Source: Draconibacterium sp.
GTDB taxonomy: Bacteria; Bacteroidota; Bacteroidia; Bacteroidales; Prolixibacteraceae
Reading direction: 5' to 3'
Length of the DNA: 10,350 bases
Assembly (NCBI GenBank): GCA_015493625.1
Contig: WGCT01000310.1
Location: forward strand, 1 to 10,350
Shown here: piece after piece, positions 1 through 10,350 of the stretch
How the letters are laid out: every line of letters begins with the position of its first letter
How positions within the stretch are numbered: position 1 is the first letter of the stretch
The notes under the pieces: generated by a model
Databases searched by the model: none
What the model saw: the letters and a program-made list of their open reading frames with translations, nothing else
What the model was told of the DNA's origin: nothing
Made by a program: the position numbers and the translations under genes

Positions 1-14
1 AAAATTAATTTAAT

Positions 15-1133
15 ATGAGAACGTTATCTATACTATTTTTGGTCGTACTTTTAAGTTTTTCGGTGTCGGCACAACAACCGGGTACGGTAGTAAAAACAGT
101 TAAAGGGAAGGTAATAAATGCCATAACCAACCAACCCATTTCGTACACAAATATAGGAATTGAGGGCACTTTCCATGGCACTGCAAGCGATGAGAATGGA
201 AATTTTGAGTTAAAGATTCCAAAAGAGATGGCTTCGAAAAATATCTTTTTCTCGGCTGTGGGTTTTAAAAGCAGGCAGTTTCCTGTTCAGTCGCTTTTTG
301 CAAAAGAGTTTAGTGTTATTAAAATGACTGCAAAATCATACGGAATAGAAGATGTGGATATTGACGCTAAAAACATGGTTCTTATTCGTATTTTACGCAT
401 GGCTTCCGAAGAGATTCCGTACAACTATATTCAGGGACCCTACAATTTAACAGCAACCTACAGCAACGAAAAAACAGTTAACGATTCAACAATAAAACAG
501 CAGGGCGATGTTTTAATTTACGATTTTACAGGGTATTCAAAACCTTCGAAATTAAATGCTTACAGGTCGTTAAACTACACGGTTAAAATGGCTGATTCGA
601 TAAACGATTATCGTTTTTCGACAGGTACAACAAACATCGACGAACTGCTGGAACTGGATTGGGTACGCGGTGCTTCGTCGGTATTAAACCCGGCTCTTAC
701 CGGCGGATTAAATTTAAAACTTGTCGACGAGCCAACCATCGACGGGAAAGCGTATTGGGTTGTCTCGTTTAAACAAGAGCAGCCCACGTTAGCCGGTTCG
801 GGCGATTTTTATGCCACAAGTTTCGAAGGGAAAATAACGATTGAAAAAGAGACCTATTCGGTTCTCTCTATCGAAGGGAAAGTGGTATCGGCAAAAAACA
901 ACAGGCAGGGGAAAGGACTTGCAATTGGCGCAACAAATCACAATTATTTCGAAAACGTTTCATACAATTTTTCTGTTCAGTATAAAGATTTACGACCCGT
1001 AAAAATTGAGTTGGCAAAAACCTACCTGTATAAGAACGAAGAAATTTCGGAACATTCGGTTTTGGAAATTACCAACGCACGGGCTTCAAATCTTACCGAG
1101 CTTGAATCGCGGCAATATTTTACAGGGGAATAA
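15..1133 (+). CDS. Secreted protein with carboxypeptidase-regulatory-like N-terminal domain (function unknown)
   Basis: 372 residues. The N-terminus is a signal peptide: a short basic start, a hydrophobic core at about residues 4-17, and a likely signal peptidase I site after VSA (residues 17-19) followed by QQ. No lipobox cysteine is visible. Residues ~28-108 read as a CarboxypepD_reg-like beta-sandwich, with a GKV-N-A-T-QPI strand near 31-42 and the typical GT-SDENGNFELKIP turn near 57-69, ending in a 'VGFKSRQFPV' strand. The rest (~109-372) resembles the region that follows this domain in many Bacteroidota exported proteins: a helix with 'ILRMASEEIPYNY' near 126-138, then alternating hydrophobic strands with 'YNLTATYSN'. 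This part could be periplasmic or surface-associated, and I cannot assign it a function. Only 14 AT-rich bases precede the ATG at 15, so the promoter or an upstream operon partner may be outside the window. It converges with panD, with 20 bp between the stop codons. Confidence 0.8.
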   Translation: MRTLSILFLVVLLSFSVSAQQPGTVVKTVKGKVINAITNQPISYTNIGIEGTFHGTASDENGNFELKIPKEMASKNIFFSAVGFKSRQFPVQSLFAKEFSVIKMTAKSYGIEDVDIDAKNMVLIRILRMASEEIPYNYIQGPYNLTATYSNEKTVNDSTIKQQGDVLIYDFTGYSKPSKLNAYRSLNYTVKMADSINDYRFSTGTTNIDELLELDWVRGASSVLNPALTGGLNLKLVDEPTIDGKAYWVVSFKQEQPTLAGSGDFYATSFEGKITIEKETYSVLSIEGKVVSAKNNRQGKGLAIGATNHNYFENVSYNFSVQYKDLRPVKIELAKTYLYKNEEISEHSVLEITNARASNLTELESRQYFTGE

Positions 1134-1153
1134 TTTTGAAACGAGAAATATAC

Positions 1154-1504
1154 TCAGACCAAACTGTTTGTTTCGGTGTTGGGGAAAATAATAGTGGGCT
1201 TAAATGTTTTTGCTTCCTCAAAATCCATTTGTGCATACGAAATTATTATTACCACATCGCCAACAGCAACTTTTCGTGCGGCCGGTCCGTTTAGGCAAAT
1301 AACTCCCGAACCGCGTTCACCCTTAATAATATATGTTTCGAGACGTTCGCCGTTGTTAATATTTACCACCTGAACCTTTTCGTTTTCAAGAAGGTTTGCG
1401 GCATCCATTAAATCTTCATCAATTGTTATACTGCCAACATATTGCAAATTGGCTTCGGTAACAGTTACTTTATGTATTTTCGATTTACAAATTTCGATTT
1501 GCAT
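1154..1504 (-). CDS. panD: Aspartate 1-decarboxylase (pyruvoyl-dependent), PanD
   Basis: Decarboxylates L-aspartate to beta-alanine, the amine half of pantothenate, in the cytoplasm. The 116-residue proenzyme aligns by eye along nearly its whole length with the PanD family (E. coli form ~126 residues) and lacks only the variable C-terminal tail. The self-cleavage site is present as G24-S25, in '[10 protein letters not shown]'. Cleavage there would turn Ser25 into the pyruvoyl cofactor. Other family residues fall at their usual numbers: Lys9 and His11 in the first strand, Arg54 and Tyr58 in 'NGERLETY', and Asn72 in the 'NGPAA' motif. This numbering supports the ATG at 1504. A purine-rich AGAGAGG sits only one base before that ATG, closer than a usual Shine-Dalgarno site. 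The start lies 13 bp after the panC stop, so the two are very likely co-transcribed and supply the two substrates and the enzyme of one condensation. Confidence 0.96.
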
Positions 1505-1517
1505 ACCTCTCTATTAT

Positions 1518-2357
1518 TTAGTTAAAACAAATATTATCAATTAGTCGTACGTTACCGCAAAACGCAGCAACACAACCTATCGTTTTTATATTTTCGTTCC
1601 AGTTGTTAACCGGCTGAAGTTGATTATTATCGACAATTTCGAAATATTCAACCTCTAAAAACGGGTTTTCATTTATGGTTTTAATCACCCAATTTTCAAG
1701 TTCTGATACGGAAATTTTCCCTTTTTGTTTTTTTGCTTTTTTCAATGTATCGAAAATATGCGCTGCATTTTTTCGCTCTTCGGGCGTTAACAACTCATTT
1801 CTCGAACTCATTGCCAGCCCATTCGCTTCGCGTACAATTTCGCAGGGCACAATTTCAATATCGAGGTTCAACTGTTTTACCATTGCTTTTATAATGGCAA
1901 GCTGCTGAAAATCTTTAAGTCCAAAATATGCTTTGTGAGGCTTTACCATATCGAAAAGTTTGCTAACAACCTGTGCCACACCATTAAAATGGCCGGGACG
2001 GTGTTTCCCTTCCATTCCAGTTTCGAGCTGTCCAAAGTTAAATTGCCGGGTATCGGGTTCGGGATAAACCTCTTTTGCACCGGGGTAAAAAACCACTTTA
2101 CAACCGGTTTGTTCGAGCAACTTTAGGTCCGATTCGAGCGTGCGCGGGTATTTCTCCAAATCGCCGGGGTCGTTAAATTGTGTGGGGTTTACAAAAATGC
2201 TTACCACAACCGCCATATTCTCGGTTACTGCCCGCTTTACCAACGAGAGGTGTCCACGGTGCAAAGCACCCATTGTAGGAACAAAACCGATTGTTCCCAA
2301 TTCTCTGACTTTTTTTAAACTATTTTGTAGCTCTTCTACCGTTTTTACTAGAAGCAT
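1518..2357 (-). CDS. panC: Pantothenate synthetase (pantoate--beta-alanine ligase), PanC
   Basis: Joins pantoate and beta-alanine with ATP to make pantothenate, through a pantoyl-adenylate intermediate, in the cytoplasm. The 279-residue length is normal for the family. It belongs to the HIGH-motif nucleotidyltransferase superfamily. 'FVPTMGALHRGH' covers residues 25-36, with the HxGH nucleotide-binding signature at H33-R34-G35-H36. Further family blocks are 'SIFVNPTQF' (53-61), 'LEKYPRTLESD' (67-77), 'GKHRPGHFNGV' (117-127), 'FGLKDFQQ' (145-152) and the KMSKS-like 'GLAMSSRN' (180-187). The start at 2357 places the first helix (KTVEELQ) as in other PanC proteins, and no strong Shine-Dalgarno site is visible upstream. 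It is followed 13 bp later by panD, which provides its beta-alanine. It is separated from the transport block upstream by 152 bp, so it probably has its own promoter. Confidence 0.97.
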   Translation of the reverse strand: MLLVKTVEELQNSLKKVRELGTIGFVPTMGALHRGHLSLVKRAVTENMAVVVSIFVNPTQFNDPGDLEKYPRTLESDLKLLEQTGCKVVFYPGAKEVYPEPDTRQFNFGQLETGMEGKHRPGHFNGVAQVVSKLFDMVKPHKAYFGLKDFQQLAIIKAMVKQLNLDIEIVPCEIVREANGLAMSSRNELLTPEERKNAAHIFDTLKKAKKQKGKISVSELENWVIKTINENPFLEVEYFEIVDNNQLQPVNNWNENIKTIGCVAAFCGNVRLIDNICFN

Positions 2358-2509
2358 ATTTCAATACAATTTGGCTGCAAAGTAAATAAAATAATTTCTC
2401 AATTTAATAGGAATGTCAATTTGCAATTCATCCCAATTTACATTGGCACGCAAACGTAACCTGATTAAGAATACTTCAATTTCACATTAAGAGAGACAAT
2501 ACAACATTC
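2358..2509 (-). other. Intergenic gap between the ABC-2 permease gene and panC; probable panC promoter region
   Basis: This 152-bp AT-rich stretch is the longest non-coding gap in the window. Read on the minus strand toward panC, it contains a TTGACA at 2414-2419 and a TTACTTTG at 2378-2385, the latter 20 bp from the panC ATG. TTACTTTG is one mismatch from the Bacteroidota -7 consensus TAnnTTTG, but no -33 TTTG lies at the expected distance. A 5-bp inverted repeat with a 4-base loop (CCAAT/ATTGG, 2433-2446) is present without a following T-run, so it is not a convincing terminator for the transport block. I see no RNA gene or conserved riboswitch fold. Calling a promoter here is inference from the spacing and these weak matches. 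Confidence 0.3.
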
Positions 2510-3223
2510 TTATACAAATTTTTCTCTTTTCTGAAGATTGAACAATCCGTAAAGAACAAATACAACCATTCCAATTCCCATAAAAATTCTGTTTTTCGAA
2601 ATAATTCCCTGCCAGATAACTTCGTTTAAATTGTGAGGTATCCGAAATGGATTGAGAAAAACATTCCACTGCGTACGGTCAACAGCATCGGATAACATTA
2701 ATAGTGCAACCCCAATTATAACCATTGTTACTGCCGTTCCGTTCCCATTTTTTATAATGGTTGAAAACATAAACGACAGAGAACCAAGGAAGATAACGGG
2801 AAACATTAATTGATACGCCATTTCGAAAACATTAATTTTAAACAACAGAACAGAAGCCACAGTGGCAAAAAGAACGGTAATAAAATAGATTAGCAGATAA
2901 ATCATTATCAACCTTACCAGCCAAACTTTGTAGCGGTAGTTAGGAATGCCAAATAAAATTTCTAGCATTCGCGAATCGTCGTCGTTTTGAATTCCAAAAA
3001 CCGATGGGTAAAATATCAGCAAAATACCCGGAAAGATGAGGATGTTGTAAATTGTTCCTTCCGAAAGTGTACGCCCGTTTAATACAGTTTGAATTGATAC
3101 AAAAAGGAAAAAACCAAATGCCGCTATTAAAAACCATATAAATTTATTGGCAAAAATTATTCGCAAATTGTACCGAATCATTTTCAGCAAAACAAAAAGG
3201 TTATTTTTTAAATTTAACTTCAT
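2510..3223 (-). CDS. ABC-2-type transporter permease, six-helix (substrate unknown)
   Basis: The 237-residue integral membrane protein has about six predicted helices (roughly residues 27-47, 58-77, 100-128, 136-156, 163-179, 212-230) and no large extracellular domain. Between helices 2 and 3 is 'DDDSRMLEILFGIPNYRYKVWLVRLI' in outline, at 81-106. It is the same kind of segment as the 'E.(R)..G..E.L...P...' block that precedes the third helix in ABC-2 exporters and is expected to face the ATPase. The length is close to the ~240-260 residues usual for ABC-2 permeases that work as dimers with a separate ATPase. The window holds no free-standing ATPase gene. The only ABC ATPase is the C-terminal domain of the RND fusion two genes upstream, which I infer to be its partner. 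It starts 27 bp after the flavodoxin-fold gene and is the last gene of the block. An alternative is that it pairs with an ATPase encoded elsewhere. Confidence 0.85.
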   Translation of the reverse strand: MKLNLKNNLFVLLKMIRYNLRIIFANKFIWFLIAAFGFFLFVSIQTVLNGRTLSEGTIYNILIFPGILLIFYPSVFGIQNDDDSRMLEILFGIPNYRYKVWLVRLIMIYLLIYFITVLFATVASVLLFKINVFEMAYQLMFPVIFLGSLSFMFSTIIKNGNGTAVTMVIIGVALLMLSDAVDRTQWNVFLNPFRIPHNLNEVIWQGIISKNRIFMGIGMVVFVLYGLFNLQKREKFV

Positions 3224-3250
3224 TTTTATAATCTTTTTTCGATGTGTAAG

Positions 3251-3829
3251 TTATTTTAACTTTTGGCCTAACTTTTCACTTTTATTCAGCCACCTTTCTA
3301 TTTTCTCTTTATCAGCCCTTTTTACCGGCGACAACGTTGTTATTTTTACCGGATTAACGCCGCAAAACTGCAACACGCCTTTTTTCATTGCATTGTGGCC
3401 AGGGCGTTTATAAACAAAACGGTAATACCATTTTGGAGTGTCCATAGTAACAATTAAACGGGCTGTTTTTCCGGTTAACAGTTTGTCCCAAAGCAGTGAG
3501 TTTTTGCGATATTTAAAAGCAAACTCAGGCAAAAATACCCGTTCAATAAATCCTTTTAAAAGAGCCGGTGGCGTACCCCACCAAATGGGGTAAACAAAAA
3601 CCAAATGATTGGCTTGCAAAATTTCGTTCTGAATATCTATCAAATCGGGTTCAAGCTCTGTTCTTTTGTGGTAGCCATGTTTTAATATTGGCGAAAAATT
3701 TAAATCGATGAGATTTATTAGTTTACACTCGGCTCCCGAAAAACCGGCTCCCTTTTTATATCGTTTAGCCAACTCGAAACAGAGACTTTCTTTGTTGGGA
3801 TGTCCGTTTATTATTACTACTTTTTTCAT
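3251..3829 (-). CDS. Flavodoxin-fold NAD(P)H:quinone oxidoreductase-like protein (Flavodoxin_2 family)
   Basis: The 192-residue soluble protein of the Flavodoxin_2 group includes NQO1, MdaB and KefF relatives, which reduce quinones and other electrophiles in two-electron steps using FMN or FAD. The first strand and phosphate-binding loop are 'VVIINGHPNKESLC' at 4-17. The family's flavin-facing motif is 'YPIWWGTPPALLKGFIERVF' (80-99), close to the classical YP-WW--PA-LKGW-DRV pattern. 'GKTARLIVTMDTP' (120-132) and 'FCGV' (155-158) are the later core elements. No signal peptide is present, so it should be cytoplasmic. It lies 68 bp after the RND-ABC gene and 27 bp before the ABC-2 permease, all on the same strand, which makes co-transcription likely. 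In the KefF case a member of this family is an accessory subunit of an efflux system, so a transport-linked role is possible but unproven here. The substrate is unknown. Confidence 0.9.
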   Translation of the reverse strand: MKKVVIINGHPNKESLCFELAKRYKKGAGFSGAECKLINLIDLNFSPILKHGYHKRTELEPDLIDIQNEILQANHLVFVYPIWWGTPPALLKGFIERVFLPEFAFKYRKNSLLWDKLLTGKTARLIVTMDTPKWYYRFVYKRPGHNAMKKGVLQFCGVNPVKITTLSPVKRADKEKIERWLNKSEKLGQKLK

Positions 3830-3897
3830 CGGGAAATAATTTTTTTGTCACTACTTTAAAACACCCTGTTTTTTCTGAAATCTTAACAGCCAACTCA

Positions 3898-6800
3898 TTA
3901 AAAATCTTTTAACAAACACAAATAAGCATCTTCGAGGTGCGGCGAAACATTTACCGCATTCGCTGCCGGTTTTTCTTTTGCCAAACATCGCACTCTAATA
4001 TTTTCGCCATCGCGCATGTGGTGAACAATTAACTGTTTATTGGCAAAATCGTCGAACTCTTTTGCCGGAATTGTAAATTGCCAAACAAAGTTTTCGCCTT
4101 TGTTCACCATATCGGTTGGTGTTCCAAAATATTTTAAATCGCCACGGTTAATTACGGCAACCTGATTGCACGAACTCGAAATATCTTCGATAATGTGGGT
4201 CGAAAAAATAACAATTCTTTCGCGGCTTAACTCCACCAACAAATTTCGGAACCGGATTCTTTCACGCGGGTCGAGCCCGGCAGTTGGTTCGTCGACCACA
4301 AGAATACGTGGCAGGTTAAGTAAAATTTGCGCTATGCCAATTCGCTGTTTCATTCCTCCCGAAAACGAGCCGATTTTATCGTTTCGTCTTTCCCACATAT
4401 GAACGTTTTTCAAAACATATTCCAGCCGTTCGTTTCGCAATTTGGTATCTTTTAATCCTTTTAAAATTGCCTGATAGTCGAGGAATTCGAAAGCCGACAT
4501 ATTTTCGTAAGTTCCGAATGCCTGTGGCAGGTAACCTATTAATCCCTGCAACTCTTCGCGGTATTCTTGTGTGTCTAACCCGTTAATCCATATTTTTCCG
4601 TAACTCTGATCCAGAATTCCGCAAATAATTCGCATCATGGTCGATTTTCCGGCTCCATTGGGGCCAAGCAGACCAAACATTCCGGTTCGTATTTCGAGCG
4701 AAACACCGTTTAATGCACGGAAAGGAGTTTTATGTTTTCCAATAACCGGAATTCGCCGAACCATAGAAAAGTACCCGCGGCGAAGTTTTCCGAAACGGCC
4801 TTCGATACGGGCAATATTTACATTCTTTTCGTGAATGTATTTGCCCGAGCGATAAATAATGAGAAGTAATATCCAAATAATTCCAACAAAAATTACCATG
4901 CCTAGGTTGTCCCACTTTTTTATAAAAATAAAAAGAAAAACCAGTGGAGTTCCCCAATAAATAAGGTTGTACATCCATCGTTTCAACTTTAAATAAATAG
5001 CTTTTCCGGTTGTTTTATTTTTATTTGCAAGTACCTGGCTGATTGGGATTAGCAGTAAAAACTGAAAGAAATAGACCAGATGCGAAAGAAACCAGGTTTC
5101 GAATTTACTGCTCACATAGAAAAATGTGAAATAGATTAAAAATGCAAATAGCGGAATTTGCCAAATTAAATCAGCAAAATCGCGAGCTTTTTTAAAGTCT
5201 TTGATTAGGCCGGCACGTTCGCGCATTTTCAACCCCGATTTCCATTCGCGCACAAATCGCGAGTCGCGGTCGTACACTTTTACCAATTTCCGTATCGTAA
5301 TTCGTATTGGTTCGTTTTCGTCGATAACTTTTGTGCTGGCTTGTCGTAAACTGGTGATAATAAACGCAGTAACTCCGGGAATTAAAATAACTAACAAAAC
5401 AAAATCGAGTAGCTGCCAAAGAAATGTATCGACTTCAAAATAGATAAATCCTGTGCCTGCAAGAAAGAGGAGTGCCATTGTCGTTTTAACTCCCCAATGC
5501 AACGATTTCATCCAGTTTAACGAGTTTTCGAGCCCCGAGTAAAGCGTTGGAATAAAGACCAGTGTTAGAATTGTGCTTAACGACAGTCCGCCAATAACAG
5601 TTATTGCAAAAGGTGCTCCAATGGCACCCACATACTCGGCCTGCCCCATTGCCAGCGGGAAAAGCGCAACAATGGTAGTAATTGCCGTAATTAATATAGG
5701 ACGTACCCGCGACAATCCTGCTGCCATAAGTGCCCGCGATTTCCGGTACCCGCGTTTTCGGAGAATATTGGTGTAATCGATTAAAATAATTCCGTTGTTT
5801 ACCACTACCCCAATAAGGATTATAAAACCCATTAATGTATTGGCGCTAAACAGACTGTTACCGGTAAAAATAAGTGCGAGAAACGAGCCGATTGCTGCCA
5901 ACGGAATGGAAAACATTAATACAAAAGGTGTTGATATTGATTCGAAAACCGAAGCGAGAATCATTAAAATTAAGATAAATGCAGCGGCAATAAGAAAATA
6001 AAACTCCGAGAATTGATCCTCTTCGTGAATAACCTCGATGGCAACACCTGAAGGTAATTTATACGAGCTTACTATTTCATCAATCTCTAATCGGTACGTT
6101 TCCAGCAACTCTTTCGATGCTTCGGCTTCGGAAATAAACCGGTAGGTAAGTTCTATCTGTTTTTCCTGATTCACTCGTTTTATACTTGCTTTTCCCGACG
6201 AATAAACCAGTAGTGCAACATCTTGCAAATCGTATGTTGCCCCACTATTATTACTAATTTGCAGATGTCGCAAATCGTCGATTCCTTTCTCTTTTCCTTT
6301 CTCTTTATCGTCGAACTGCTCCTCTTTTATTACAATCTCGTACTCCTCGTTTCCCTGATTAAAATTAACGCCGCCGGCTGTAAACTCACTCGAAAAGGTT
6401 GCCAATTCCGATGTTATATTGTTTAACGTAAGTCCGTATTCGGTTAAAAGCAGCTGATTAAAAAAGAGGTGCACCTCGGGGCGGTTACCCGCAATATTTA
6501 TATTTGCACTCCGTATCGACTCCAAATCTTCGACATAATAAAGAATGTCGTCGGCCACACCTTTCATCACCTCAAAATTGCTTCCTCTAATTACAATGCG
6601 TTCGCGGTTACTTCCAATTCCCATAAACCGGCCAAAGTTTTCGGTGCCCGAACGTCTGCTGCCACCACCGCCAAAACTGGCACTCGATGTTGGAGCTGTT
6701 AAACTAATTTCGGCGTTGGCAACGTTCTTTACTTTCTTTTCAACATCAGCTTTTATCTCGGCAATGGTTCGGTTATTTATCTTTTTGTAATCGTCTTTCA

Positions 6801-8613
6801 GAATAAATGTTAAAATAGCCTCCTCTTCCTGAATTTTCGAAATCAGATCTTTTTTCTCTTCTATGTCTTTTAGTCGCGATTCAACATCGGTTACAACCAA
6901 ATCGGTAGCTTCGAGAGTTGAACCGGTTGGCATAGTTACATAAATAGAGAACTGTGTCTGTTCAACCTCCGAAAGACTATTTACACTAACTGCCAGCGCA
7001 ATAAAAATGGTAAGAAAAAACAGCACAACTGCACCTATAATTGTTTTGGCAGGAGTGCGCATACTTGCCTTTAAAAGAAGAAGATAAATTTGAACAATTC
7101 GATTGTTGGTGGTCACTTTTTCGTAAAAAATGTTTTTCTGTTTTTTCCCTTTCAGCAAAAAATGGGCAGCTGCCGGAATAAGCAGCAGTGCCACAAACAA
7201 CGAAACCATTAATGTAGAAATTATGGAAACTCCCACATGATTACCGAGGAGTTTTACCATATAGTCGGACGAGAAAAGAAAGGGCAGAAATACCGTAACC
7301 GTAGTTAATGTTGCGGCCACAATAGAGCGCCATACCTCTTTTGTTCCCTGTGTTACAGCCCGTTCGGCATCGTAATTGTTGCCCGAGAGCCGATAGATAT
7401 TTTCGAGCACAACAATACTATTGTCGAGCAACATGCCAATTGCCAAAACCAAACCCACAAGCGTTAAACTGTTTAACGAAATATTGAAGGCATAAAAGAG
7501 ATTAAAGGCAGTAAATACCGAAATTGGAATGGCCAAAGCGATAAACGAAACAATGCGGAAATTTTTTAAAAACATCCACAAAACAAAAATAGCGAGCAAA
7601 CCTCCAACCAGTGCAAGGTCGATAATCTGGTCGATGTTCTTCTCCATGGTTTCGGCCATGTTGGTTTGAACAACAATTTCAACCTCTTTCGAAGCCAGCT
7701 TTTTATTTAACTCAGCAATCTGTTTTTCAACTTTGTGCGAAAGGTCGATTAAATTGGCTTGCGAGTCGTTTACTAAAATCATTGAAACCGCATCGAGCCC
7801 GTTTACACGGCTAATTGTAGTTTCCTCTTTTACACCAAAAAAAACGGTTGCTACATCTTTCAAGTAGACAGGGCCGTCGGCAACAACAATATTTTCAATG
7901 TCTGAAACATTATCGTATTCGGCAGTAACGTGTACAAAATATTGTCTTTTCGAATCGTGTAAATAGCCGGCAAAAGTACGGCTTGCCGAGTTGCGCGAAA
8001 TGGCATTTCTGATTTGCGCGGGAGTAATATGGTAAGCTTCGCAGGCGGCTTTGTTATAGGTTACTTCTATCGACCGCTCTTTCCCACCAAAAACGGTTAC
8101 CGATGCAATTCCGTCTATATTCTCCAAATCGGCAGCAATCTCTTTATCAACAATATTTCGTAAACGGTCGGTGCCACCGGTGCCACGCACTTGCAGTTCC
8201 ATAAACTGACTACTAATTTGCTGAATATTAACCTTGTTTACCCGCACGGTAAAGTTGTCGCCAAGGCTATTTTTTATCAAGTCAATTTTTTCCTGAAGTT
8301 TCAGGAATGTATATTTTGTATTTACATTTTGTTTGAAATTTACCTGAATTGAAGCTGAACGGTTTGAGATATTCGACTCAATGCTTTCAACTCCCTCCAT
8401 TGTATTTATGGCACCTTCAATGGGAATAACTGCCTGGCTCTCCATATAAGCGGGGTCGACCTCGACCGACGAACCAACGCTGACAAAAAGCATGGGCAAC
8501 TCGGCATTTGGCATTAATTCAACCGGAAGCATTTTGTAAGACTTAATCCCCAAAAGGGTAAGCCCTAAAAACAACATGCTTATAAATATTTTTCTATTTA
8601 TGATGAATTTCAT
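3898..8613 (-). CDS. RND efflux permease fused to a six-helix segment and a C-terminal ABC ATPase
   Basis: The 1571-residue frame has no interruption. Residues 1-~1030 are a complete HAE1/AcrB-type RND permease: TM1 at ~10-29, a periplasmic porter loop ~30-328, TM2-6, TM7 at ~522-543, a second porter loop ~544-868, and TM8-12 ending near 1028. The TM4 motif is 'AIGMLLDNSIVVLENI' (391-406), with D397-N398 in place of the AcrB D407-D408 pair. TM10 carries 'GVVVNNGIILIDY' (935-947), with no lysine at the K940 position. Residues ~1041-1255 add about six helices, with a basic cytoplasmic stretch at ~1090-1148. Residues ~1297-1505 are an ABC ATPase: Walker A GPNGAGKST 1317-1325 (K1323), Q-loop Q1364, signature SGGMKQ 1418-1423, Walker B ending D1441-E1442, D-loop 'GLD' 1446-1448 and H1473. 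All catalytic residues are present. The tail (1506-1571), with 'SPHLEDAYL' (1557-1565), resembles the end of ABC-2 exporter ATPases. The even number of added helices keeps the ATPase cytoplasmic. The ATG at 8613 follows a purine-rich AAAGAGAGAAG, and the stop is a tandem TAA-TGA. It lies 64 bp after the other RND gene. The normal length for an RND pump is ~1020-1060 residues. The substrate is unknown. Confidence 0.92.
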   Translation of the reverse strand: MKFIINRKIFISMLFLGLTLLGIKSYKMLPVELMPNAELPMLFVSVGSSVEVDPAYMESQAVIPIEGAINTMEGVESIESNISNRSASIQVNFKQNVNTKYTFLKLQEKIDLIKNSLGDNFTVRVNKVNIQQISSQFMELQVRGTGGTDRLRNIVDKEIAADLENIDGIASVTVFGGKERSIEVTYNKAACEAYHITPAQIRNAISRNSASRTFAGYLHDSKRQYFVHVTAEYDNVSDIENIVVADGPVYLKDVATVFFGVKEETTISRVNGLDAVSMILVNDSQANLIDLSHKVEKQIAELNKKLASKEVEIVVQTNMAETMEKNIDQIIDLALVGGLLAIFVLWMFLKNFRIVSFIALAIPISVFTAFNLFYAFNISLNSLTLVGLVLAIGMLLDNSIVVLENIYRLSGNNYDAERAVTQGTKEVWRSIVAATLTTVTVFLPFLFSSDYMVKLLGNHVGVSIISTLMVSLFVALLLIPAAAHFLLKGKKQKNIFYEKVTTNNRIVQIYLLLLKASMRTPAKTIIGAVVLFFLTIFIALAVSVNSLSEVEQTQFSIYVTMPTGSTLEATDLVVTDVESRLKDIEEKKDLISKIQEEEAILTFILKDDYKKINNRTIAEIKADVEKKVKNVANAEISLTAPTSSASFGGGGSRRSGTENFGRFMGIGSNRERIVIRGSNFEVMKGVADDILYYVEDLESIRSANINIAGNRPEVHLFFNQLLLTEYGLTLNNITSELATFSSEFTAGGVNFNQGNEEYEIVIKEEQFDDKEKGKEKGIDDLRHLQISNNSGATYDLQDVALLVYSSGKASIKRVNQEKQIELTYRFISEAEASKELLETYRLEIDEIVSSYKLPSGVAIEVIHEEDQFSEFYFLIAAAFILILMILASVFESISTPFVLMFSIPLAAIGSFLALIFTGNSLFSANTLMGFIILIGVVVNNGIILIDYTNILRKRGYRKSRALMAAGLSRVRPILITAITTIVALFPLAMGQAEYVGAIGAPFAITVIGGLSLSTILTLVFIPTLYSGLENSLNWMKSLHWGVKTTMALLFLAGTGFIYFEVDTFLWQLLDFVLLVILIPGVTAFIITSLRQASTKVIDENEPIRITIRKLVKVYDRDSRFVREWKSGLKMRERAGLIKDFKKARDFADLIWQIPLFAFLIYFTFFYVSSKFETWFLSHLVYFFQFLLLIPISQVLANKNKTTGKAIYLKLKRWMYNLIYWGTPLVFLFIFIKKWDNLGMVIFVGIIWILLLIIYRSGKYIHEKNVNIARIEGRFGKLRRGYFSMVRRIPVIGKHKTPFRALNGVSLEIRTGMFGLLGPNGAGKSTMMRIICGILDQSYGKIWINGLDTQEYREELQGLIGYLPQAFGTYENMSAFEFLDYQAILKGLKDTKLRNERLEYVLKNVHMWERRNDKIGSFSGGMKQRIGIAQILLNLPRILVVDEPTAGLDPRERIRFRNLLVELSRERIVIFSTHIIEDISSSCNQVAVINRGDLKYFGTPTDMVNKGENFVWQFTIPAKEFDDFANKQLIVHHMRDGENIRVRCLAKEKPAANAVNVSPHLEDAYLCLLKDF

Positions 8614-8677
8614 TCTTCTCTCTTTGTATTGAAACGCCTTACCGGCACGCTAATGACTCTGATATTATTAACAATGG

Positions 8678-10350
8678 CTATCTCTTCACAAATAAATTTT
8701 TAAATCGGTCTAACACATCGTAAACACAAGGAATAACAATAAGTGTTAACAATGTAGAAGTTATTAGTCCGCCAATTACGGCCAGTGCCATTGGCGAGCG
8801 TAACGAAGCACTTTCGCCCAACCCAATTGTTAATGGTAAAAGTGCCAAAATGGTTGTTAAACTGGTCATTATAATAGGCCGAATTCGTTGTTGCCCTGCT
8901 TGCAAAATGGCCTCTTTTCTGTTTAGTCCTTCGCGCATTAACTGGTTTATCCGGTCTACCAAAATAATGGAGTCGTTCACCGCAATTCCAACCAGCAGAA
9001 TAACACCAATTATTGCCATTATATTAAATGTTTTCCCGAGAATAAAAAAGATTAAAATGCTGCCCACAACGGCAAGCGGAATGGTTAGCAAAATTACAAA
9101 CGGGTGAATAAGCGACTCGAATTGCGAAGCCAGAACCATATAAACCAGCACGATTGAGAGCAGCAAAGCAAACACGAGATTGTCCATCGACTCTTGGCGT
9201 TTTTCTTCATCGCCGGTTACTTTTATCCGGTAATTTGGCAGCAAATCGATGGTGGATGTTGCTTCGCGAATCTCTTTTGAAACGTGGTCGAGAGCCACTC
9301 CGGGTTTCAATTGAGCAGTAACTTTACCAATGCGATTTTGGTTGCGGCGGAAAATCTCTTTTGGCGAAACATCGTACGAAACATCGGCTATTTCATTAAG
9401 TCTGAAAACCTGTTCTCCCGACTTAATAATAAGCTCGTTTATTTCGTTCACTCCTTTTTCGGGAACTTTAATTGTGATGTCTTGCATTTGCCCCCCCTTT
9501 TCGAGCTGACCGGCACTTTTCCCTTCCAGCTGGTCTTGCACCTGTGTAACAACCGTATTTATATCGATGTTGTACATTCCGGCACGCAAACGGTCTACTT
9601 TTATCTCCACTTCGGGGGCACCATTTTCTATCGATGTTTGTACATTCAACAAACTGCCTATTCCCTCCATTTTCTCTTTTACCCGGTTTACAACCGACTC
9701 AATTTCGTCTAGATTTTCGCCTCGCACTTCAACCACAACCGGCGCTTCGTTGGTGCCAAGAATAGCTTTTAATGCACTCTCCTCTTGCGAAAACTTAATT
9801 TCAAGTCCTTCAATATTTTCCGAAAGTTTATCGATAGTTGCAATAATACTCGCTGTCGATATTTTTGAATCGCCCTTTAAAATTACCTTAATCTCGCCGG
9901 TATTCTCGCCTTCAAAAACCGAGTTTTCGTTTCCGCTAATTCCGTTCGACGGCCCCGCCTGCGAGTAGATCTTATCGAGGTTGTCGCCCAAATAATCGAT
10001 TAGAATGCGTTCAATATTTTCAACAGTAGATTGAGTTCTTTCCAACTCGGTTCCCTCCTGCAACTTCAGGTTTATGGTCAACTCTTTGGTCTCTGTTTTT
10101 GGCATAAACTCGGTTCCAATTTTAGGAACCAGTGCAAATGCAGCTACAATCAGGAGAGTTGAAAGAACAAGTACCATCCATTTTATTTTCAGAATTTTTT
10201 CGAGAAAACGGCCGTAACCACCTACTCTAACCGATTTTGCTTTTACCGGCGATTTCCGGTTGCGGTAAAACCGGTGGTACATCATTGGAATAAGAAAAAT
10301 GGCAACCGCCAGCGACGAAACAAGCGAAAAAGCAACAGTCCACGCCTGGT
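8678..10350 (-). CDS. RND efflux permease (HAE1/AcrB type), 5' end outside the window
   Basis: The frame stays open to the window edge. The 21 codons upstream of the first internal ATG pair (10280-10285) read QAWTVAFSLVSSLAVAIFLIP, the last part of RND transmembrane helix 6. The true start is therefore beyond position 10350, probably by about 450 codons, and the methionines at 10280-10285 are internal. What is visible is the C-terminal half: the TM6 end, TM7 ('MVLVLSTLLIVAAFALVP', nt ~10127-10174), a second periplasmic porter loop with the usual 'GTEFMP' entry and an 'EVRGENLDEIESVVNRVKEKMEGI' type porter repeat, then TM8-12 ending at a TAG at 8678. TM10 has 'VGIAVNDSIILVDRINQLMREG', in which N-D replaces the lysine region of AcrB. 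There is no C-terminal extension, unlike its neighbour. It would export hydrophobic compounds from the periplasm or inner membrane through an adaptor and an outer-membrane channel. It is first in the visible operon, 64 bp before the RND-ABC gene, and the two may form a mixed trimer or act separately. Confidence 0.93.
   Translation of the reverse strand, partial: QAWTVAFSLVSSLAVAIFLIPMMYHRFYRNRKSPVKAKSVRVGGYGRFLEKILKIKWMVLVLSTLLIVAAFALVPKIGTEFMPKTETKELTINLKLQEGTELERTQSTVENIERILIDYLGDNLDKIYSQAGPSNGISGNENSVFEGENTGEIKVILKGDSKISTASIIATIDKLSENIEGLEIKFSQEESALKAILGTNEAPVVVEVRGENLDEIESVVNRVKEKMEGIGSLLNVQTSIENGAPEVEIKVDRLRAGMYNIDINTVVTQVQDQLEGKSAGQLEKGGQMQDITIKVPEKGVNEINELIIKSGEQVFRLNEIADVSYDVSPKEIFRRNQNRIGKVTAQLKPGVALDHVSKEIREATSTIDLLPNYRIKVTGDEEKRQESMDNLVFALLLSIVLVYMVLASQFESLIHPFVILLTIPLAVVGSILIFFILGKTFNIMAIIGVILLVGIAVNDSIILVDRINQLMREGLNRKEAILQAGQQRIRPIIMTSLTTILALLPLTIGLGESASLRSPMALAVIGGLITSTLLTLIVIPCVYDVLDRFKNLFVKR

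Follow-up and report, generated by a model that had tools for sequence, protein, structure and literature searches.

A conserved fusion of an RND permease to an ABC ATPase in a putative export operon of Bacteroidales

Exporters are classed by their source of energy, with resistance–nodulation–division (RND) pumps running on ion gradients and ATP-binding cassette (ABC) exporters on ATP. MacAB–TolC combines an ABC exporter with an adaptor and a TolC-type channel. In MdtABC and MuxABC, to our knowledge, no ATPase is attached to either RND permease and ABC permeases are absent from the operon. The parts of SecA–SecYEG–SecDF are separate proteins that act on a protein substrate with no adaptor or TolC, and SecA is not an ABC ATPase. 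Published accounts give an MdtB2C1 stoichiometry for the Mdt heterotrimer (PMC7015380) and describe SecA–SecYEG–SecDF as placing an ATP motor and a proton-driven unit of the RND superfamily on one export path (PMC8669966). Here we analyse a stretch of 10,350 nucleotides from Draconibacterium sp. (GenBank assembly GCA_015493625.1, contig WGCT01000310.1, positions 1 to 10,350; hereafter the window), in which a single open frame of 1571 amino acids on the reverse strand (3898..8613) fuses an RND permease, RND2, to an ABC ATPase.

Like MdtABC and MuxABC, the operon of this fusion has an adaptor and two different RND permeases, a likeness that here concerns gene pairing only; unlike them, it contains an RND-linked ATPase and predicted ABC permeases. 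It differs from MacAB–TolC in having RND permeases in the same operon and in the same chain. The best-scoring ATPase models for the fused domain are those of GldA and DrrA, neither of which reaches its curated cut-off, and a small permease encoded nearby matches NosY in predicted fold, which places the ABC part of the locus close to NosFY, DrrAB and GldA; unlike in those systems, the ATPase belongs to an RND chain and a membrane insert is predicted to interrupt its domain. The machine that we propose below would share the logic of SecA–SecYEG–SecDF, an ATP motor together with an RND unit.

A sequence-only reading of the window had proposed that a complete RND pump and a complete ABC ATPase share one frame without a stop, and profile searches bear this out. 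Pfam ACR_tran (PF00873) covers residues 2–1026 of the fusion, or positions 3 to 1018 of the 1021 in the model, with 559.5 bits against a cut-off of 28, and ABC_tran (PF00005) covers residues 1301–1445 with 97 bits against a cut-off of 25. In NCBIfam, RND permease models match to about residue 1029 and ATPase models of the GldA and DrrA kind begin to match near residue 1292, with none of the best 25 of 188 matches above its curated cut-off. The RND module (residues 1–1031; 5521..8613, reverse strand, as for all parts of the fusion) has the 12 transmembrane (TM) helices and two porter loops described earlier, hydropathy placing the long loops between TM1 and TM2 and between TM7 and TM8. Hydropathy and an AlphaFold2 (AF2) model indicate two extra TM helices between the RND module and the ABC domain (residues 1032–1102; 5308..5520). 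The first β-strand and A-loop of the ABC domain (IRITIRKLVKVYDRDS, about residues 1101–1116; 5266..5313) stand apart from the rest of it, separated by a membrane insert of four TM helices, two in some relatives (residues 1117–1296; 4726..5265). The remainder of the domain (residues 1297–1571; 3901..4725) contains the Walker A motif GPNGAGKST (residues 1317–1325; 4639..4665), the Q-loop, the SGG signature, the Walker B glutamate E1442 and H1473.

All the motif residues named in the sequence-only reading lie at the positions given there, namely K1323, Q1364, SGG (1418–1420) followed by MKQ, E1442, H1473 and the TM4 aspartate D397 of the RND module (7423–7425). They are invariant in 140 of 140 aligned fusions longer than 1400 amino acids, a set made up mostly of close kin with some rows repeating one genome, and every row has the full set of Walker A, Q-loop, signature, Walker B glutamate and switch histidine. 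In 19 of 19 divergent fusions the TM4 aspartate (read by eye), the acidic residue expected for proton coupling, is kept, as is the A-loop K-x-Y, whose K1112 and Y1114 also occur in all 140 rows. When aligned by eye to AcrB, for which PMC8277102 gives D407/D408 and K940 as the relay residues, RND2 has D397–N398 in TM4 and N939–N940 in TM10, a D-N and N-N arrangement compared with D-D and K in AcrB. RND2 does not have the canonical AcrB (HAE-1) relay of an aspartate pair in TM4 and a lysine in TM10; from its sequence it may nevertheless work like an RND pump.

The window is the whole of one contig (C310) in a draft assembly of 587 contigs, so that a missing stop, or a chimeric contig joining two neighbouring genes, has to be considered. 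We judge such an artefact to have a negligible chance of being the explanation: the same length and join recur in single-contig assemblies, in other families and outside the class. The whole fusion lies in one frame in 23 of the 25 genomes of the genus, including the single-contig G006, G008 and G013; in one of the other two it is cut over two contigs (G022), and in the second, which is 70% complete, it was not found (G015). A query with the linker region (residues 1027–1300; 4714..5535) matched 40 of 295 genomes of the order, where 32 fusions occupy one frame of at least 1515 amino acids and the other eight reach a contig edge. It also matched 8 of 395 genomes in a sample of the class and 7 of 395 in a sample of the phylum. 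Strong matches outside the order occur in G515 and G629 (same class) and in G788 and G994 (same phylum), with fused frames of 1561–1577 amino acids. Three weak, partial class matches (E 3.5e-5 to 6.4e-4) were not counted as fusions: by eye, G697 is a different ABC exporter with its transmembrane part before the ATPase, and the small membrane protein matched in G685 lacks Walker A; G534, which is also among the seven of the phylum sample, has stops.

Six of the best 80 loci in a further scan of named genomes carry the linker; they come from Proteiniphilum, Parabacteroides massiliensis, Carboxylicivirga, two further Bacteroidales and a contig binned as Latescibacterota. The last is a 38% identical fusion on a 4.3-kb contig (L071), and its assignment may be a binning error. 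With residues 1020–1571 as query, the best 120 of 3962 homologues all combine PF00873 with PF00005, roughly ten being shorter proteins, and their names include Maribellus, Draconibacterium and Mariniphaga. The database check suggested with the sequence-only reading thus finds the two domains in one chain in other genomes. Of the two outcomes that it took to count against a fusion, a junction confined to this assembly is contradicted by the genus genomes and the other genera, and two proteins split near residue 1030 were not seen in the homologues examined. The RND–ABC fusion is genuine and not an assembly join.

The sequence-only reading was right about the motifs of the ATPase and overlooked the predicted interruption of its domain. 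In the fusion, the A-loop tyrosine and first strand precede the four-helix insert and the Walker A motif follows about 209 residues later. Among unfused relatives, for which 49 of 74 loci yielded an open reading frame (ORF; not always the one that had brought the locus in), a K-x-aromatic motif precedes the Walker A lysine by 28–29 residues in 38 and by 19 in 5, and is absent from the 45 residues inspected before that lysine in 6. The ABC domain of the fusion is therefore not continuous, and its A-loop does not have the usual spacing of about 28 residues from the Walker A lysine. The two extra TM helices after the RND module are found by hydropathy in 19 of 19 divergent rows and appear in the AF2 model at residues 1040–1060 and 1064–1093. 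The same model has a strand at residues 1105–1111, and all 50 ATPase alignments listed for it start at model residue 100–105. Both pieces are thereby predicted to fold into one ABC domain around the membrane insert. The linker itself has no match in Pfam or NCBIfam, and its sequence matches in the Protein Data Bank (PDB) are at chance level (best E 1.6). At two loci (L162 and L163, from G295 and G102) the insert has only two TM helices and the A-loop lies 137 residues from Walker A; in sequence, then, the insert can shrink while the split remains.

No split chain was found among the 40 linker genomes of the order or in G515, G629, G788 and G994, a result that covers neither chains cut by a contig edge nor divergent forms too weak for the search threshold. 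A profile search limited in length to about 315–1000 amino acids listed 120 proteins, among them 27 of 531–601 amino acids that lack the PF00873 label and correspond to the linker plus ATPase. Twenty-five of these start inside the RND module (residues 977–1018), mostly at the same few internal methionines, and resemble gene-caller starts on contigs that begin mid-gene; the other two, P0163 and P0232, start at residues 1028 and 1042. Many of the contigs that carry such shorter forms are short themselves, and a few true split genes may be present among these sequences. Three genomes with the large permease of the operon (described below) and no linker (G205, G299 and G160) were considered as split or fusion-free versions and set aside, since the contig ends right after the adaptor gene in all three. 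In G210 the RND2 frame reaches to 4 nucleotides before the contig end. A quick tree without bootstrap groups 17 fused ATPases, the Latescibacterota row included, in one clade and 10 free operon ATPases in another, each with a Shimodaira–Hasegawa-like approximate likelihood ratio (SH-aLRT) of 100, and L071 branches before the other fused ATPases. These sequences are read most simply as a fusion that arose once. The idea that the free operon ATPase (ABC1) is the direct sister of the fused one, from which a duplication and hence a heterodimer could have been argued, was dropped because the tree gives it no support.

Across many Bacteroidales species the fusion is part of a conserved cluster of seven genes in the order ABC ATPase, large ABC-2-like permease, TolC, adaptor, RND1, fusion and small permease, a setting that the sequence-only reading had missed. 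RND1 is a second RND permease without an ATPase; in the window (8678..10348, reverse strand) the contig end cuts its gene, leaving the last 556 residues, which match ACR_tran with 356 bits. Going upstream from the fusion, it is the first labelled gene in all 21 loci that have at least 6.9 kb of upstream sequence, and it is directly adjacent in 20. At L028 an ORF of 129 amino acids (17252–17641, forward strand) separates the two genes, and ORFs of 129–132 amino acids also lie between them in some genomes of the genus (L006, L013, L016 and L017). A pattern search, the misses of which were not inspected, finds the TM4 motif (D-N) of RND1 in 12 of 18 rows and its TM10 motif (N-D or N-N) in 16 of 18. 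One RND match (G000:C243:7506-10589, L002) lies within a frame of 1452 amino acids, exceeding the usual RND length, and G011 and G021 are similar. The parts of a tripartite system are present in the relative G009, as an adaptor above the RND_mfp cut-off (TIGR01730) and an outer-membrane channel of family OEP (PF02321). Homologues of this adaptor and TolC-type channel occur in 21 of 21 loci; the window's contig ends inside RND1, before these genes.

The small permease (perm_s; 237 amino acids; 2510..3223, reverse strand) is the predicted membrane partner of the fused ATPase. Within the order its distribution is identical to that of the linker (40 of 295 genomes), and its model, which lacks a large periplasmic domain, predicts the fold of NosY, an ABC-2 protein, as would suit the membrane partner of an ABC-2 type exporter. 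The large permease (for example L019:6366-9713, reverse strand) starts with six to eight hydrophobic helices, followed by about 840 residues that comprise an M1-peptidase-like region and a Golvesin_C domain. A peptidase function is unlikely: Peptidase_M1 scores 23.1 against a curated cut-off of 27.7, and the HExxH motif is absent from 11 of 11 sequences.

We lean, with slightly more confidence than doubt, towards an ABC exporter that has its ATPase incorporated in an RND subunit and passes its substrate to the proton-driven RND pump, the whole forming one envelope-spanning machine with the fusion as its joint. In such a machine the fused ATPase would drive ABC-2 half-permeases, namely the small permease and perhaps the large permease with its own free ATPase as the partner half. 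By analogy with MdtB2C, RND1 and RND2 would form a mixed trimer. The substrate, starting in the cytoplasm or inner leaflet, would be raised by ATP to the periplasmic side; protons moving via D397 would then push it by way of the RND porter into TolC, and the adaptor and TolC would carry it out. The three ATPases per trimer that the sequence-only reading found awkward presume a homotrimer; RND1 lacks an ATPase in 21 of 21 loci and a mixed trimer is equally open, and such a trimer would contain one or two ATPases, so that the puzzle disappears. More tentatively, and with doubt prevailing, the fused and free ATPases might be a pair and the small and large permeases a pair of membrane halves, hard-wired through the split ABC domain to the RND1/RND2 trimer as a single exporter, with ATP loading and proton expulsion in one cycle. 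That would be a new class of exporter, powered by ATP as well as protons and having one chain in two transporter superfamilies.

Two other readings take the fusion as real. The sequence-only reading had left a choice between an ATP-assisted RND pump and a tethered ABC exporter; neighbourhood and predicted fold support the link to an ABC exporter over a stray ATPase, and the choice itself goes beyond what sequence can decide. The fused ATPase and small permease could regulate or mechanically drive the RND subunit without moving substrate, in the manner of the force transmission by FtsEX and MacB. That two helices and the insert tie the ATPase covalently to the RND module would fit such ATP gating, as would the small size of the permease and its lack of a large periplasmic domain. 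We nevertheless consider it unlikely, because a regulator would not need a whole NosY-like permease of the kind predicted in all 40 linker genomes, and this strict co-occurrence is why we favour an ABC exporter that hands over its substrate. Less likely still, in our view, is a mere tether, in which an independent RND pump and ABC exporter share the adaptor and TolC and the fusion merely keeps them assembled together in equal amounts. In favour of a tether, all ABC motifs and the RND TM4 aspartate are retained, and ordinary stand-alone relatives exist for each module; a fusion that served dosage only should break occasionally, which the absence of split chains reported above does not bear out.

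Several observations weigh against a substrate-transferring machine. An ATPase and a permease are encoded in the operon independently of the fusion, so the fused ATPase might be no more than a tether or regulator. The small permease has no Foldseek match at E ≤0.001 (best 0.014), and the ABC-2 match of the large permease falls under the Pfam cut-off (25.3 versus 27.2). The AF2 model of residues 1001–1571 has a pTM of 0.52, which makes the arrangement of insert, RND end and ATPase unsure, and by a crude hydropathy count the insert helices are odd in number in 3 of 19 rows. The RND2 relay is reduced relative to AcrB, with asparagine (by eye) at both the D408 and K940 positions, so we only infer that RND2 uses protons. 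Eight forms of 789–931 amino acids start inside the RND module, at residues 643–794 in P0001 numbering, several of them on long contigs (P0130, P0134, P0197, P0199, P0214, P0215, P0223 and P0224; contigs of 14,943 to 612,947 nucleotides); these may reflect a start miscall, a frameshift or a true shorter gene. One of the forms is named Bacteroides sp. 519.

No description of an RND–ABC fusion was found in open-access papers, the search leaving subscription papers and transporter databases outside its scope. Database names for the protein are generic ('efflux RND transporter permease subunit' or 'ATP-binding cassette domain-containing protein'), so annotation mostly hides the hybrid, although some JGI names give both parts. 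A chain with both engines, a dedicated small permease and a tripartite operon would make substrate transfer from the inner membrane to an RND pump testable in one protein. If the chain of the ABC domain does pass through the membrane after its first strand and before Walker A, this would be a new way of attaching a motor to a membrane protein. Should the coupling be true, the exporter would be in a class of its own; should it fail, what remains is two ordinary pumps in an odd fusion.

Between the fusion and the small permease, the window carries a Flavodoxin_2/NAD(P)H oxidoreductase gene (3251..3829, reverse strand). Of the other loci compared, only that of G021, a 97% relative of the window's genome, has it at this position, and it is probably a local insertion outside the export machine. 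Foreign-looking ORFs, KilA-N-like and transposase-like by eye, lie right after the fusion at L172 (3942–4586, reverse strand) and at the downstream end of L048, suggesting that the gap after the fusion tolerates insertions.
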